DNA from: an uncultured Poribacteria bacterium
GTDB lineage: Bacteria; Poribacteria; WGA-4E; WGA-3G
Length of the DNA: 64,000 bases
Assembly: GCA_951828515.1 (NCBI GenBank)
Contig: OX639992.1
Coordinates: 2,582,217 to 2,646,216 of the forward strand
Reading direction: 5' to 3'
This document shows, in pieces, positions 56,276 through 61,199 of the stretch. Position 1 is the stretch's first letter; each line of letters starts with the position of its first letter. Under the pieces are notes generated by a model. That model made no database searches, was not told the origin of the DNA, and worked only from the letters and a program-made list of their open reading frames with translations. Position numbers and translations under genes: made by a program.

Positions 56276-56342
56276 AGTGCTTTGGCTTACGACCGGCTCC
56301 ATTTCTGCTTCATCAAAATCTTCGGGATGGAAACCTCGCGCT

Positions 56343-57365
56343 TTAGCGCGGGGAGGCAATCCCGCTCCTATAGTTGAAATTCAGACGCGTAAGCACCTTA
56401 AAATCAGAGGGTTTTGCATTTTGGCAAAGGCGTTTCCCTGACAAAGAATATAAGGAAATCCCTCTTTTTCCAAAGCCAGCAATACGGGTGAGACCATACT
56501 GAATGTGTCTCACAAGAGTGTTTTTCACAAAACCACCCCACGTCGTCCCACCATACCGGGGCCTTTTCCCATTTGCCTGTGAGTTCTGACGATGGAGTTG
56601 ACGCCTGACAATTGGTATCGGTGAAACGCACATCAACTCGGTGTTGTCTACAATAGACTTACCCCCAACTGTGTGGTATGCCAGACACCAGCTATCCACA
56701 CAATGTGCGTCAAAGGTTTCAGAAAGTTTCTTTGAAGACTTCTTCAAACCGAGCCTCTCTCGAATCGCTTTCGTCTCCCAGCCCTGGAGCGTCAACACCT
56801 CCCACCGTTTCTGAATCTCAGCGTAGAACCATCGCTTTCCCACTTCTAAGGGACTAAAGGATTGATTCCACTTTTTCGCACGTGCTATCGTGCGTGCTTT
56901 AATATCTTCAACACAGATATGGGTGATAGGAAACATCTTTGAAAACCAGTCAAGGATACGGAGTTTCCAGTCCCATCTCGCACGGGTTCCAGCGGGAATC
57001 CGTACGGTGTTAGCGAGACGGTTGGTGCGCTGTTTGCGGTTTGGACACTTCCGAGAACGTCTGCCTCTGCGCAACTCACGCCGTTTTTCTACTTTCTTAC
57101 CGACCTTATTGTGAGCATCTGCTTGGACATTGAGATAGGTGTGTGCCTCACTTTTGACCGTAAAGCCTTCTTTCTTACTACCGGGGTCTACCCCGACGAC
57201 GATCTTTTGTTTGTAATCATCAGAGGGATCGACATTCAGACGCACGCAAAACACGCTATTCTTCCAAAATGGTGTCGCTTTGCCTGATTTTATCCACTTC
57301 CCCGCGCGCTGAGGTGTTGTCGGCATTAGTGGTTTTTGGTTCTTATCAACAACAGGAACAAACAT
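56343..57365 (-). CDS. isrB: IsrB, RNA-guided RuvC nickase without HNH domain
   Basis: A 340-residue relative of IscB/Cas9. Residues 10-35 are the PLMP domain (KPLMPTTPQRAGKWIKSGKA). RuvC-I has D60 in VVGVDPGSKKEG. An arginine-rich bridge helix spans 92-117 (KRRELRRGRRSRKCPNRKQR). RuvC-II has E153 in HICVEDIKA, and RuvC-III has H221 and D224 in TFDAHCVDSWCLA. Between RuvC-II and RuvC-III there are only about 60 helical residues and no HNH domain, which separates IsrB from IscB. All RuvC catalytic residues are present, so it should be active. A C-terminal stretch of about 110 residues with RYGGTTWGG follows. The stop lies in the right-end hairpin. It probably nicks DNA guided by the RNA at 57366-57572. 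Confidence 0.85.
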   Translation of the reverse strand: MFVPVVDKNQKPLMPTTPQRAGKWIKSGKATPFWKNSVFCVRLNVDPSDDYKQKIVVGVDPGSKKEGFTVKSEAHTYLNVQADAHNKVGKKVEKRRELRRGRRSRKCPNRKQRTNRLANTVRIPAGTRARWDWKLRILDWFSKMFPITHICVEDIKARTIARAKKWNQSFSPLEVGKRWFYAEIQKRWEVLTLQGWETKAIRERLGLKKSSKKLSETFDAHCVDSWCLAYHTVGGKSIVDNTELMCVSPIPIVRRQLHRQNSQANGKRPRYGGTTWGGFVKNTLVRHIQYGLTRIAGFGKRGISLYSLSGKRLCQNAKPSDFKVLTRLNFNYRSGIASPR

Positions 57366-57572
57366 AATTTGTAATCTCCCTTACGGGTTGTGTATTACCC
57401 CATCCAGATCACGGTATCCGAGAGGAATCAGACTTGGGGAGTATCCGAAACATCGTGCGGGCTGCCACGCCAAGATACCGCGATATTTTACTGTAGAAAA
57501 CTGTTTCGTCCTATGCAGGGAACGTTGGGCTACGCTATGCACAAGCCTCCCCGTTTAGGGGGAGGTAGTTGA
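57366..57572 (-). ncRNA. Predicted omega-RNA region of IsrB
   Basis: In IscB/IsrB loci the guide RNA lies upstream of the protein gene, with its guide taken from DNA next to the element's left end. Here about 205 bases lie between the left-end hairpin and ATG 57365. They contain short paired blocks, such as GGGGAGG with CCTCCCC, GATACCGTGATCTGGATGG, and GGATACTCC facing GGATACC. The guide would be the minus-strand sequence just beyond, near 57573-57592. Confidence 0.65.
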
Positions 57573-57709
57573 CCCAAATATGATTGATACAGCCGGTTCC
57601 TTGAATGGCTGCGATAACACGGGTTTCGCCGGGTTCGACATTCCAAGCGTAGTGAGCGTGCTTTTTTAACGCGCGTCAGCGATGACAATAATCCGTCAAC
57701 GTAAGTCAT
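57571..57709 (-). pseudogene. DUF2961-like 5' fragment, frameshifted and cut by the IsrB element
   Basis: On the minus strand an ATG at 57709 (AGGAAA upstream) opens MTYVDGLLSSLTRVKKARS. A one-base shift near the run of six A at 57661-57666 leads into HAHYAWNVEPGETRVIAAIQ and GTGCINHIWV, the start of a DUF2961 domain (typical EPGET...ADIQGPG-ITHIW). Coding similarity ends at the element's left end. No matching remainder was seen on the far side. Confidence 0.6.
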
Positions 57710-57828: not shown

Positions 57829-58797
57829 TTATTCTGTTTCTTCGGAAAGAGGGTTTTCCAAAGTGTATGTCCATTGCTTTTTCTGACGAATAAATCTCAA
57901 CTGTAGCGCGTCTGCTGCATAGTTGTCAAGTTCGTCAGTGTTTTTTCTCGGTCCAGATGCTGCCGGTTCAAAATTGGTGATGAGTGCTTCCAACATCGGT
58001 TTTCTATTCGATTCCTTTGCACCGACATGATAAAAATGTTCCCTTGTGATGACATTAAATTCTGACCATAGATTCGGGATCGCGGGATTTTCTCTATGTT
58101 CGTTGCTATGCCAGGTTGAGAGGATGAACTGTGCTTTGGTTGTTTTCAAATCTTGATAAAGCGATTTTTCATGTGTTTCATTCCAAGTGTTAAAGTAATC
58201 GGTATGTCGCCCGGCATAAGGTGGGTCACAGTAGATAAAGTCTGCTTCAGTCGCACAAGATAGCGTGAGGCGAAAATCCTGATGCAAAAAAGTCCAGTCA
58301 CTGAGGCTAGCACGTTTGGCGACCCATTCTACCTGATTCACAATTTTGGTGACATACGCTTTAGAGAAGCGCTCGGGCTTATGTCCGAATGGTACATTAA
58401 ACTCGCCCTTCCTATTGAAACGGAGAAGCCCATTAAAACAAGCGCGGTTCAAAAACAGGAAGTCCAAAGGAGACTTTTCTCTATTAAATCGTTTTCGGAC
58501 TTCATAATAATAATCGGCACCCTGTTTCGCTAACTGGGGCCCTTCTGATTCAAGAAATTCGCGAACAACAATCGAAGTTATCGTGCCGCTATTTATTCCT
58601 TGATAGAAGGAGATAAGATGTGGATTTGTATCGCAGAAAAGTGCCTTACGCGGTTTGAGGTTGAACCCAACGACCCCCGACCCCATAAATGGTTCAATCC
58701 AAACCCCTTCTCCGCTCCATTGGTGTGTCTCTGCTATCCATTCAACCAGTTTACTTTTGATACCTTGGCACTTTATCGGTGGAATAAGGACCTTCAT
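57829..58797 (-). CDS. Adenine-specific DNA methyltransferase (Dam/D12 class)
   Basis: A 322-residue N6-adenine methyltransferase. IEPFMGSGVVGFN is motif I (SAM binding), FLFLNRACFNGLLRFNRKGE the D12 signature, and ATEADFIYCDPPYAGRHTDY motif IV with DPPY. KCQGIKSKLVEWIAE fits motif X at the N-terminus. The length and order match the alpha/D12 group that partners type II endonucleases. Its ATG overlaps by four bases the end of a frame that resembles an EcoRV-type endonuclease N-terminus. The target site cannot be read from sequence; GATATC is a guess by association. Confidence 0.88.
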   Translation of the reverse strand: MKVLIPPIKCQGIKSKLVEWIAETHQWSGEGVWIEPFMGSGVVGFNLKPRKALFCDTNPHLISFYQGINSGTITSIVVREFLESEGPQLAKQGADYYYEVRKRFNREKSPLDFLFLNRACFNGLLRFNRKGEFNVPFGHKPERFSKAYVTKIVNQVEWVAKRASLSDWTFLHQDFRLTLSCATEADFIYCDPPYAGRHTDYFNTWNETHEKSLYQDLKTTKAQFILSTWHSNEHRENPAIPNLWSEFNVITREHFYHVGAKESNRKPMLEALITNFEPAASGPRKNTDELDNYAADALQLRFIRQKKQWTYTLENPLSEETE

Positions 58798-59012
58798 TTT
58801 GAGCGCGTTTTCCTTATCAGACGCGGAAATAAATGGATTTCTAATAGTTTAGATACGATTTTCGTATCCGCTGAAATCGTATAAATTCTCCGGTAAATGT
58901 CAATGAAACCCTTGATAGTCCATTGTCCATCAGGGGTAGCAACGTAGGAGTTGAGCGTTTTAACAAATTCATTGAGTTTTGTGCTAAATACGCTTTTTGC
59001 TGATTTTTCCAT
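58794..59012 (-). pseudogene. Remnant of an EcoRV-like restriction endonuclease
   Basis: A 72-codon frame: FVKTLNSYVATPDGQWTIKG, FIDIYRRIYTISADTKIVSK, LLEIHLFPRLIRKTRSK. The IYTISADTK-SK-E--FP order recalls EcoRV (GKIYPLGSDTKVLSTIFELF from memory). The catalytic part that would follow (PD...DxK) is absent, and the frame ends at the methyltransferase start (ATGA). It is probably a deletion product, leaving the methyltransferase alone. Confidence 0.5.
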
Positions 59013-59162: not shown

Positions 59163-59696
59163 CTACCCCAGTTTCCGATGATTCCAGCGTTTCAAGGCAA
59201 ATTTTACAATCTTATCTCTTCTGTTGCTAATAGAAATATGATTCCATCGATCTGGTTTTGGGTTACAGAACTTGCTCAATTCAAGTTGTGACTTGATCGG
59301 TGCTTTGCTATACTGTTCATCTTTGGTTTCAAAGTCTTGATTTGATTTACTGGTATTTGCTGAGCGTGAGTCTAACACCAAATTCCCAATGCTATGAAGA
59401 TAATTTTCCTCGAAATCGGTAATTGATAGGATTGAGTTATCTGCAACAACTTTCTTACTGTCTCTAGGGTTTTGTGGGATAATATGCTCAATCGTGAGTT
59501 TTGTCTGCGATTTCTCGTTCCTAAACGTCTCAGTGGACATCTCAGGGAAAATCGGTTGTTCTGCTAATCTGAGATGGTTCTCGTATTTCCAGAATAGATA
59601 CCGTTGATCGTTTCCATCAACAACCTCGTGAAATCTAGGTTGGCGTAGACTACGTTCAAACTCAAAATCGCCACAATACCAGTCAACAAACTTGGA
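59163..59696 (-). pseudogene. C-terminal fragment of a GmrSD-type (DUF262/DUF1524) restriction protein
   Basis: The minus-strand frame is open from the TGA at 59697-59699 down to TAG 59163. TKLTIEHIIPQNPRD is the HNH-like DUF1524 centre, and YLHSIGNLVLDSRSANTSKS continues it. The part upstream of ATG 59540 (SKFVDWYCGDFEFERSLRQP, DGNDQRYLFWKYENHLRLAE) is also real coding sequence. The DUF262 half is missing. After TAG 59163 the same frame stays open for 26 more codons (KPAGIDAEILLDEIWEEVFS, TVEPVQ). Confidence 0.75.
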
Positions 59697-59780
59697 TCAG
59701 CATCTGTTTGCTCCGCACGCGCCGGTTGCGCAGGCGCGTCATTGAAATGGAAGACAGCAATTTTAGTGCCGGGAATGCCC
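59696..59780 (-). pseudogene. 85-base fragment of a sugar-isomerase gene
   Basis: Encodes GIPGTKIAVFHFNDAPAQPA-RAEQTDAD, matching GIPGNKIAVFHFNDAPAEPA-RAEQTDAD of the intact isomerase at 60340. Nucleotide identity is about 86% by eye. It sits between the truncated aspartyl protease and the GmrSD fragment, and both junctions are sharp. Confidence 0.85.
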
Positions 59781-59796
59781 GCGTAAAAACTCATTA

Positions 59797-60054
59797 TCAA
59801 ACCTGTAATCTGCTCACTGCGATAATTTCAGCATTCGTAATACCATTAGCTGTGATAAAATCAATCCTACGCAAATTTGGATCTGAAAGATCATATCCTA
59901 AATCTGATAAAATATCTGGATTAATAGTCGTAAGCGAGGCACCAGTATCTAATATTAAATCTACAGTAACATGCTTGCTATAGTCCAATGCATATATTGT
60001 CGCTTGAACCATAATTAATTTGTCCGGGCTTAACGCAAAACGTGTCTGACGCAT
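59797..60054 (-). CDS. Retropepsin-like aspartyl protease, truncated at the C-terminus
   Basis: About 85 residues from ATG 60054. VTVDLILDTGASLTTINPDI carries the DTGAS catalytic motif, then LGYDLSDPNLRRIDFITANG and ITNAEIIAVSRLQV. The family normally continues another 35-40 residues through a hydrophobic-hydrophobic-G segment; here the frame stops at the junction with the isomerase fragment. Start and upstream stop share one base (TAATG), so translation is coupled to the small protein upstream. A longer frame from ATG 60066 exists. It is likely inactive or unstable as it stands. Confidence 0.72.
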   Translation of the reverse strand: MRQTRFALSPDKLIMVQATIYALDYSKHVTVDLILDTGASLTTINPDILSDLGYDLSDPNLRRIDFITANGITNAEIIAVSRLQV

Positions 60055-60339: not shown

Positions 60340-61152
60340 TCAGGACTGTAGAACGGCTTTCATCTTTTCTAATCCGATGCGTGCGACTTCTGCAGGATCT
60401 TGTTCCCAATAACTCGGATTGAACAATTCCAGTGAGATGACACCTGCGTATCCCGCATCTTTTAGAATAGAGATCATCTGTCCGAGATCGAGGATACCAT
60501 CGCCGGGATAAACTCTATCTGCATCAGTTTGTTCCGCGCGCGCGGGTTCCGCAGGCGCGTCGTTGAAGTGGAAGACTGCGATTTTGTTGCCGGGAATGCC
60601 TCTCATGTCGTCTATTTCCCCGTCACCACGATAGATATGGAACGGATCGAGGACAATCGTACTATCCGGGTGATCCGCCACTTCCATCACTTTCCAGGCA
60701 TGCTTGACTTGGTTGACACCATCAACGAAGCCGAGAAATTCCATAGCGGGTTTAACGCCGAATTCGCGTCCGAGTTCAAGCAGTTCGCGGTAATTCTCGC
60801 CACCTAACTGGAGGTCTGCAACTTCACGCGGCGGACTTGAGATGATGTAGGTTGAACCGACAGCGGCGGCTTGTGCCATCCGACGTTTCGCTTCTTCGAT
60901 CGCTTCCTGATGTTCGGTGCCTGTGGTGTCGAGCCAACCGTGCAAGGCGATAACGGTAGGCACTGCAAGCCCGTGATCGTCGAGTGCCTTTTTGACATCC
61001 GTAAGCGAACCACCTTGTTCCTCGTAAGCGGTTAAATCGTCGTTCCATAGTTCAATCGCTGAATAGCCGGTTTCGGCAGCGATCCGAATCTTATCCATTA
61101 ATCCGGCAGGTCGGATTGTGCTTGTATTTAAGGCTAATTGAAATTGTGCCAT
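60340..61152 (-). CDS. Sugar-phosphate isomerase/epimerase-family TIM barrel, first
   Basis: About 270 residues of the xylose-isomerase-like TIM-barrel superfamily (AP_endonuc_2). FQLALNTSTIRPAGLMDKIR opens the barrel, and AAETGYSAIELWNDDLTAYE follows. ALHGWLDTTGTEHQEAIEEA, MEFLGFVDGVNQVKHAWKVM, STIVLDPFHIYRGDGEIDDM and YAGVISLELFNPSYWEQDPA place the metal-ligand Glu, Asp, His and Glu in the usual order. ATG 61152 is the start; the upstream TTG 61173 is weaker. The substrate is probably a keto-sugar or inositol derivative. Confidence 0.85.
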   Translation of the reverse strand: MAQFQLALNTSTIRPAGLMDKIRIAAETGYSAIELWNDDLTAYEEQGGSLTDVKKALDDHGLAVPTVIALHGWLDTTGTEHQEAIEEAKRRMAQAAAVGSTYIISSPPREVADLQLGGENYRELLELGREFGVKPAMEFLGFVDGVNQVKHAWKVMEVADHPDSTIVLDPFHIYRGDGEIDDMRGIPGNKIAVFHFNDAPAEPARAEQTDADRVYPGDGILDLGQMISILKDAGYAGVISLELFNPSYWEQDPAEVARIGLEKMKAVLQS

Positions 61153-61199
61153 GCTTTTTGGCGAAGCTTGCAAGCCAAAACTTGCTCTTCAAAACCCCC

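Follow-up and report, generated by a model that had tools for sequence, protein, structure and literature searches.

The window analysed here is a stretch of 64,000 nucleotides (positions 2,582,217 to 2,646,216 of contig OX639992.1) from an uncultured member of Candidatus Poribacteria, a sponge symbiont whose genome of 5.85 Mb is contained in one contig. On its minus strand the window harbors an element of 1260 bp (56314..57573), which encodes an IsrB protein of the OMEGA nickases, a type defined by RNA-guided nicking of the non-target strand, carries a putative omega-RNA upstream of this gene and is flanked on either side by remnants of a DUF2961 gene. The genome contains six near full-length isrB copies, the window copy included, of which the other five are 66-76% identical to it, one of these five with a stop codon. 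Several fragments and copies without an open reading frame (ORF) are also found, and most congeners likewise hold several copies per genome. The IsrB relatives of the window genome all belong to Candidatus Poribacteria. Other loci are referred to below by their L numbers.

The IsrB protein and its omega-RNA

The isrB ORF (56343..57365, minus strand) encodes a protein of 340 residues with the N-terminus MFVPVVDKNQKPLMP. It has the PLMP domain, the RRXRR/bridge-helix region and the split RuvC domain that are expected of IsrB at a length of around 350 residues, and it is matched by the Pfam family RRXRR (PF14239) with an E-value of 2e-32. Its best relative of solved structure is DtIsrB from Desulfovirgula thermocuniculi (PDB 8dmb; PMC9581776), which aligns over residues 3-281 (E=1.4e-34) or, in the profile version of the comparison, from residue 3 to the C-terminal domain (E=6.7e-51). 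Both proteins combine a PLMP domain, a bridge helix, a RuvC domain without HNH and a domain that interacts with the target-adjacent motif (TAM). The RuvC residues D60, E153, H221 and D224 are all present and are invariant among 28 relatives compared. In IscB, an HNH domain is found between RuvC II and RuvC III, whereas the window protein has no HNH insertion in its E153-H221 interval, where the spacing is as in DtIsrB, and its score with the NCBIfam IscB model, 95.7, stays below the cut-off (175). An earlier sequence-only reading of the window had described the protein as IsrB-type with a complete RuvC site, and the alignments agree, finding neither an HNH domain nor a lost RuvC residue.

The omega-RNA scaffold is placed 5' of the gene at 57366..57573 (minus strand). 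In an alignment of 49 sequences, 22 of the 33 consensus pairs have changes on both sides, and this covariation supports the claim, made in that reading, that the omega-RNA region is intact. The layout of the RNA is shared with IscB and its HEARO RNA (RF02033), which gives full-length but sub-threshold matches at the corresponding position of sister loci (E=4e-4 at best). At gathering thresholds Rfam has no match within the window. The covariance-model search that had been proposed as a check was thus productive only in the sister elements, and on the window copy a relaxed Rfam search returned just a chance snoRNA. With its guide the RNA would measure about 228 nt, compared with 284 nt for the omega-RNA of DtIsrB, which is also found 5' of the gene. 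The sequence evidence is consistent with a structured RNA that has the guide at its 5' end, as in IsrB systems, and the protein and RNA together are a new member of IsrB.

The boundaries of the element were defined from an alignment of around 85 copies and from empty sites of sister copies. The left end, GTCAACTACC, lies at 57573 and the right end, GAAGATTTTG, at 56314; the consensus ends of the aligned copies are GTCA(A/G)(T/C)NACC and GAAGAT(TTT)G. The sequence-only reading had recognized the element but given it the limits 56331-57709. The 20-nt guide lies outside the element, in the flank that precedes its left end. In the window copy it is GCTGTATCAATCATATTTGG (57574..57593, minus strand) and stems from the DUF2961 sequence that encodes GCINHIW; the earlier choice of this flank was right and only its position, 57573-57592, is corrected, to 57593-57574.

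Insertion sites, start codons and the right end

Empty sites were obtained by comparing congeners that lack an insertion with the five sister copies of this genome. At L162, for example, the empty site reads TTCT/ATGAAAATT and the filled site TTCT/GTCAATAACC...GAAGATTG/ATGAAAATT, where slashes mark the junctions. Four of the five sister copies lie directly 5' of an ATG with no target duplication, and in the fifth (L021 of this genome) one ATGAAT unit of the site has also been lost. Insertion thus takes place immediately 5' of NTGA and duplicates no target sequence; NTGA is also the TAM of IsrB. In the window copy this tetranucleotide is the ATGA at the right junction (56310..56313, minus strand). 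The fixed tetranucleotide, the absence of target duplication and the terminal hairpins, all evident from the empty sites and the alignment of ends, are those of IS200/IS605 elements and their transposase-less derivatives, which also have subterminal hairpins and exact insertion beside a tetranucleotide. Compared with IS200/IS605, the window element has no transposase, and its end carries a Shine-Dalgarno-like sequence placed for the downstream gene.

DtIsrB likewise has an NTGA TAM, the fourth base of which is read by Q326, and the Q326R variant accepts G as well (PMC9581776). Among 82 pairs of IsrB and right flank, residue 315 is the protein column of highest mutual information with TAM base 4; it was picked as the maximum, and it coincides with the one residue that has an experimental role. 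This residue is Q or T with ATGA, T with GTGA (7/7), and R with ATGG (9/10) and ATAG (3/3). In the profile alignment it falls on the Q of DGKRIGQ in 8dmb, and its equivalence with Q326 follows since an offset of 150 also places R100 and R104 of PMC9581776 on arginines. Q315 would thus be the reader of base 4 in the window protein, and the natural switch from Q or T to R alongside a change of TAM lends independent support to the DtIsrB result.

The junctions are also frequently gene starts. The triplet at the right junction opens an ORF of at least 80 codons in 47 of 87 cases (54%), against 18% of control GATG sites, and a start-like triplet is combined with a Shine-Dalgarno sequence within the final 16 nt of the left flank in 25 of 82, against 2.2% in controls. 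The original Shine-Dalgarno sequence often persists in the guide flank of such copies. By comparison, gene starts account for only 3.3% of all ATGA sites, and for 20% when just start and intergenic sites are counted. When 18 downstream proteins were searched, the Pfam models of eight (UvrD, ThiI, epimerase, glycosyltransferase, YjgF and others) began at residues 4-7. Genes downstream of L022, L024 and L026 in this genome remain strongly constrained, with ratios of nonsynonymous to synonymous substitution of ~0.02-0.05, like their uninterrupted orthologues, and the short gene downstream of L023 evolves fast everywhere. For two cyanobacterial IsrBs, the next annotated coding sequence starts at the right end of the element, and most IsrBs on viral contigs with a recognizable right end open a long ORF there. 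In this lineage the NTGA at the junction is very often the start codon of a gene, so that the element comes to lie between a Shine-Dalgarno sequence and its AUG.

The right end itself carries AGGAG or a close variant directly 5' of a hairpin in at least 75 of 97 ends. In the window copy the AGGAG is at 56365..56369 and the hairpin at 56323..56364 (both minus strand), with an outer stem CGGGAT/ATCCCG and a loop, CTAAAG, that contains the isrB stop codon. When the hairpin is folded, AGGAG is mostly 6-10 nt from the ATG. The outer stems vary widely and stay complementary (CGGGAT/ATCCCG, CGGTGT/ACACCG, CGCTGT/ACAGCG, CGGCAA/TTGCCG). Where AGGAGC is coding (Arg-Ser), the arginine codon is AGG in 38 of 41 cases, against 11% overall, and the serine codon AGC in 30 of 35, against 11%; it is therefore the nucleotides, not the residues, that are conserved. 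Subfamilies in which the ORF stops earlier (e.g. L092 and L101) keep AGGAG after the stop. Ends without it include L110, L111 and L113, which have ATAG targets, and L106, with ATAA. In classifying the ends, around ten loci at which the automatic classifier had misplaced the hairpin foot were reassigned by hand. A Shine-Dalgarno-like sequence with its hairpin is thus a conserved feature of the right end, which may resupply translation initiation to the host gene.

The ORF-less elements measure ~405-485 nt (one has 575); they retain the sequence in a form that is better still, AAAAGGAG, and most of them adjoin ORFs of at least 95 codons. We found no paper in the open-access literature that links IsrB with start codons or a replacement Shine-Dalgarno sequence, and neither the start-codon preference nor the right-end arrangement is described for DtIsrB in PMC9581776; within this literature both appear to be unreported.

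Several further observations were made on these relatives. In L066, L070, L237 and L246, elements from different genomes, a similar stretch of 25-30 nt (GTGTTTTTGCTTGGGCGTTTCTTCTAG-like) enlarges the hairpin loop at the right end. The ORF-less elements (L028, L030, L031 and L032 of this genome and L221-L250) bear in their 3' half GTCAGGTC...GAAGCAGC, the exact strands of helix 8 of the bacterial signal recognition particle (SRP) RNA; the apical hairpin is extended and has the loop GTGNNAG, and the outer pair covaries (T-A, G-C). There are 28 distinct copies of this part, and the pattern has 35 matches compared with 2 for a reversed-pattern control. The Rfam SRP model does not match the ORF-less elements; the real SRP RNA of the genome is L220. 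Relatives of IsrB also occur in cyanobacterial plasmids and viral contigs (L201-L204, L205-L219), and several share the layout of the ends. The viral contigs yielded no relatives with a poribacterial profile and 15 with a cyanobacterial query.

The window copy and its neighbors

That the element had inserted in a DUF2961 gene was recognized in the sequence-only reading, and both flanks are indeed parts of one such gene, although the right flank had gone unnoticed in that reading. The 5' remnant (57574..57709, minus strand), aligned with L150-L161, runs from the start to codon 58 and has a 38-nt deletion that shifts the frame. The flank encodes ...VEPGETRVIAAIQGTGCINHIW, and the orthologue aligns to codon 58 (...GCINHIW). 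The 3' remnant (56287..56313, minus strand), identified by congener alignment, comprises the last eight sense codons, MKQKWSRS, and the stop. In congeners, the site of the right junction lies 945 nt downstream of the first and 27 nt before the gene end, and ATGA or a close variant follows both points. Arrival of the element was thus accompanied by loss of exactly the 945 bp that separate the two ATGA sites in orthologues, and on the evidence of these alignments this ATGA-to-ATGA deletion destroyed the host gene. The deletion could have arisen from two insertions that recombined, or from a single insertion, after which a deletion of the transposase type extended from the left end of the element to an ATGA upstream. 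With its host gene destroyed, the window copy is an exception among its relatives.

At 57829-59012, a Dam-type adenine methyltransferase is followed by a 72-residue ORF whose match to EcoRV is confined to the N-terminal 45 positions; the two are probably what is left of a broken restriction-modification pair. A fragment at 59163-59540 matches the C-terminal domain of the GmrSD restriction endonuclease. The short ORF at 59564-59800 repeats a piece (IPG.KIAVFHFNDAPA.PARAEQTDAD) of the adjoining xylose-isomerase-like protein (60340-61173), which suggests a partial duplication.

Mechanism and alternative explanations

The window contains an intact IsrB element of the IS200/IS605 kind. Its lineage very often inserts at start codons and likely brings a replacement Shine-Dalgarno sequence in its right end, the window copy being an exception. 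Such an element would presumably be mobilized in trans by a Y1 transposase. The AGGAG of the right end would then replace the lost Shine-Dalgarno sequence, with folding of the hairpin bringing it to within 6-10 nt of the AUG, and the host gene would stay translated. Because the guide lies outside the element, the host promoter would transcribe guide and omega-RNA together. An RNA-guided nick on the empty allele may finally favor recopying of the element, as has been proposed for other OMEGA systems. We lean, by a little, toward a more general view in which IsrBs are start-codon-specialized mobile elements. Their TAM would be the start codon plus one base, their guide the Shine-Dalgarno region of the host gene and their right end a hairpin-bridged replacement for it, making insertions silent and leaving transcription of the guide to the host promoter. 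The ORF-less derivatives would behave likewise, with an omega-RNA fused to a domain resembling the core of SRP helix 8.

The main rival is that the pattern reflects survivorship. The transposase would take any NTGA, insertions inside genes would be purged, AGGAG would be a feature for the transposase, and host genes would be translated by re-initiation after the isrB stop or not at all. AGGAG does abut the transposition hairpin, at whose foot it could serve the transposase rather than the ribosome; the loop of this hairpin holds the isrB stop, a short distance from the AUG, and insertions inside genes do exist (L021 and the window copy). Other points that weigh against the proposed mechanism are that about half of the insertions are at no recognizable start codon, that no Y1 transposase with matching ends was found at five of the six Y1_Tnp loci of the genome that were checked, and that the window copy gives its host gene no visible benefit. 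Ends lacking the Shine-Dalgarno sequence are at starts in 1 of 11 cases compared with 46 of 76 for the others, but this value (p=0.002) is soft, given the hand classification and the clustered relatives. However, insertions at starts (54%) are more frequent than the 20% that survival of non-genic sites alone would predict, and ends without an AGGA-like sequence include those with ATAG targets. Re-initiation is also hard to reconcile with the ORF-less elements, which have no stop codon, keep AAAAGGAG and mostly adjoin intact genes. Both the copies without an ORF and the surplus of start sites over what non-genic survival would give appear to speak against survivorship, which we judge to be doubtful though a serious contender.

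Two further explanations were considered. The sequence-only reading had proposed that the guide, which encodes the conserved GCINHIW, is directed at a multi-copy DUF2961 family in the same genome; other genera of the order do have up to seven copies. However, DUF2961 (PF11175) occurs exactly once in 22 of 23 congeners, and a Pfam search that matched the relatives gave no hit in this genome. As a protein motif the guide occurs once in the genome, and the proposed search for the guide with its flanking NTGA, at up to three mismatches, finds only the element's own flank. Since the genus has the family in single copy and this genome has no member besides the disrupted one, the guide is without a target in its own genome, where a family-directed role is scarcely credible. 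Recognition of related genes elsewhere is consistent with the data only across genomes, where the orthologous site in 12 congeners matches with 1-5 mismatches and an ATGA TAM. Alternatively, the element may have been domesticated to repress ribosome-binding sites, in the manner of the TnpB-derived RNA-guided repressors (TldR), nuclease-dead proteins found at flagellin genes. As with TldR, guides can lie over the 5' regions of genes, and those of start-codon copies often cover Shine-Dalgarno regions. In contrast to TldR, the nuclease site is intact in the window element and in 28 relatives, and the guide is set by where the element has inserted. Insertion sites also vary between copies and genomes, and several copies in the genome are broken, as expected of a mobile element, which makes domestication very unlikely.

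OMEGA systems with a 5' guide rely on transcription that begins beyond the element, and a transposon has to spare the gene that hosts it. If IsrBs are indeed specialized for start codons, insertion between a Shine-Dalgarno sequence and its AUG, with a replacement provided, would meet both needs. It would also explain why natural IsrB TAMs (ATGA, GTGA, ATGG) look like start codons, and IsrB biology, for which structures have so far been the main source, would become testable by a simple reporter.
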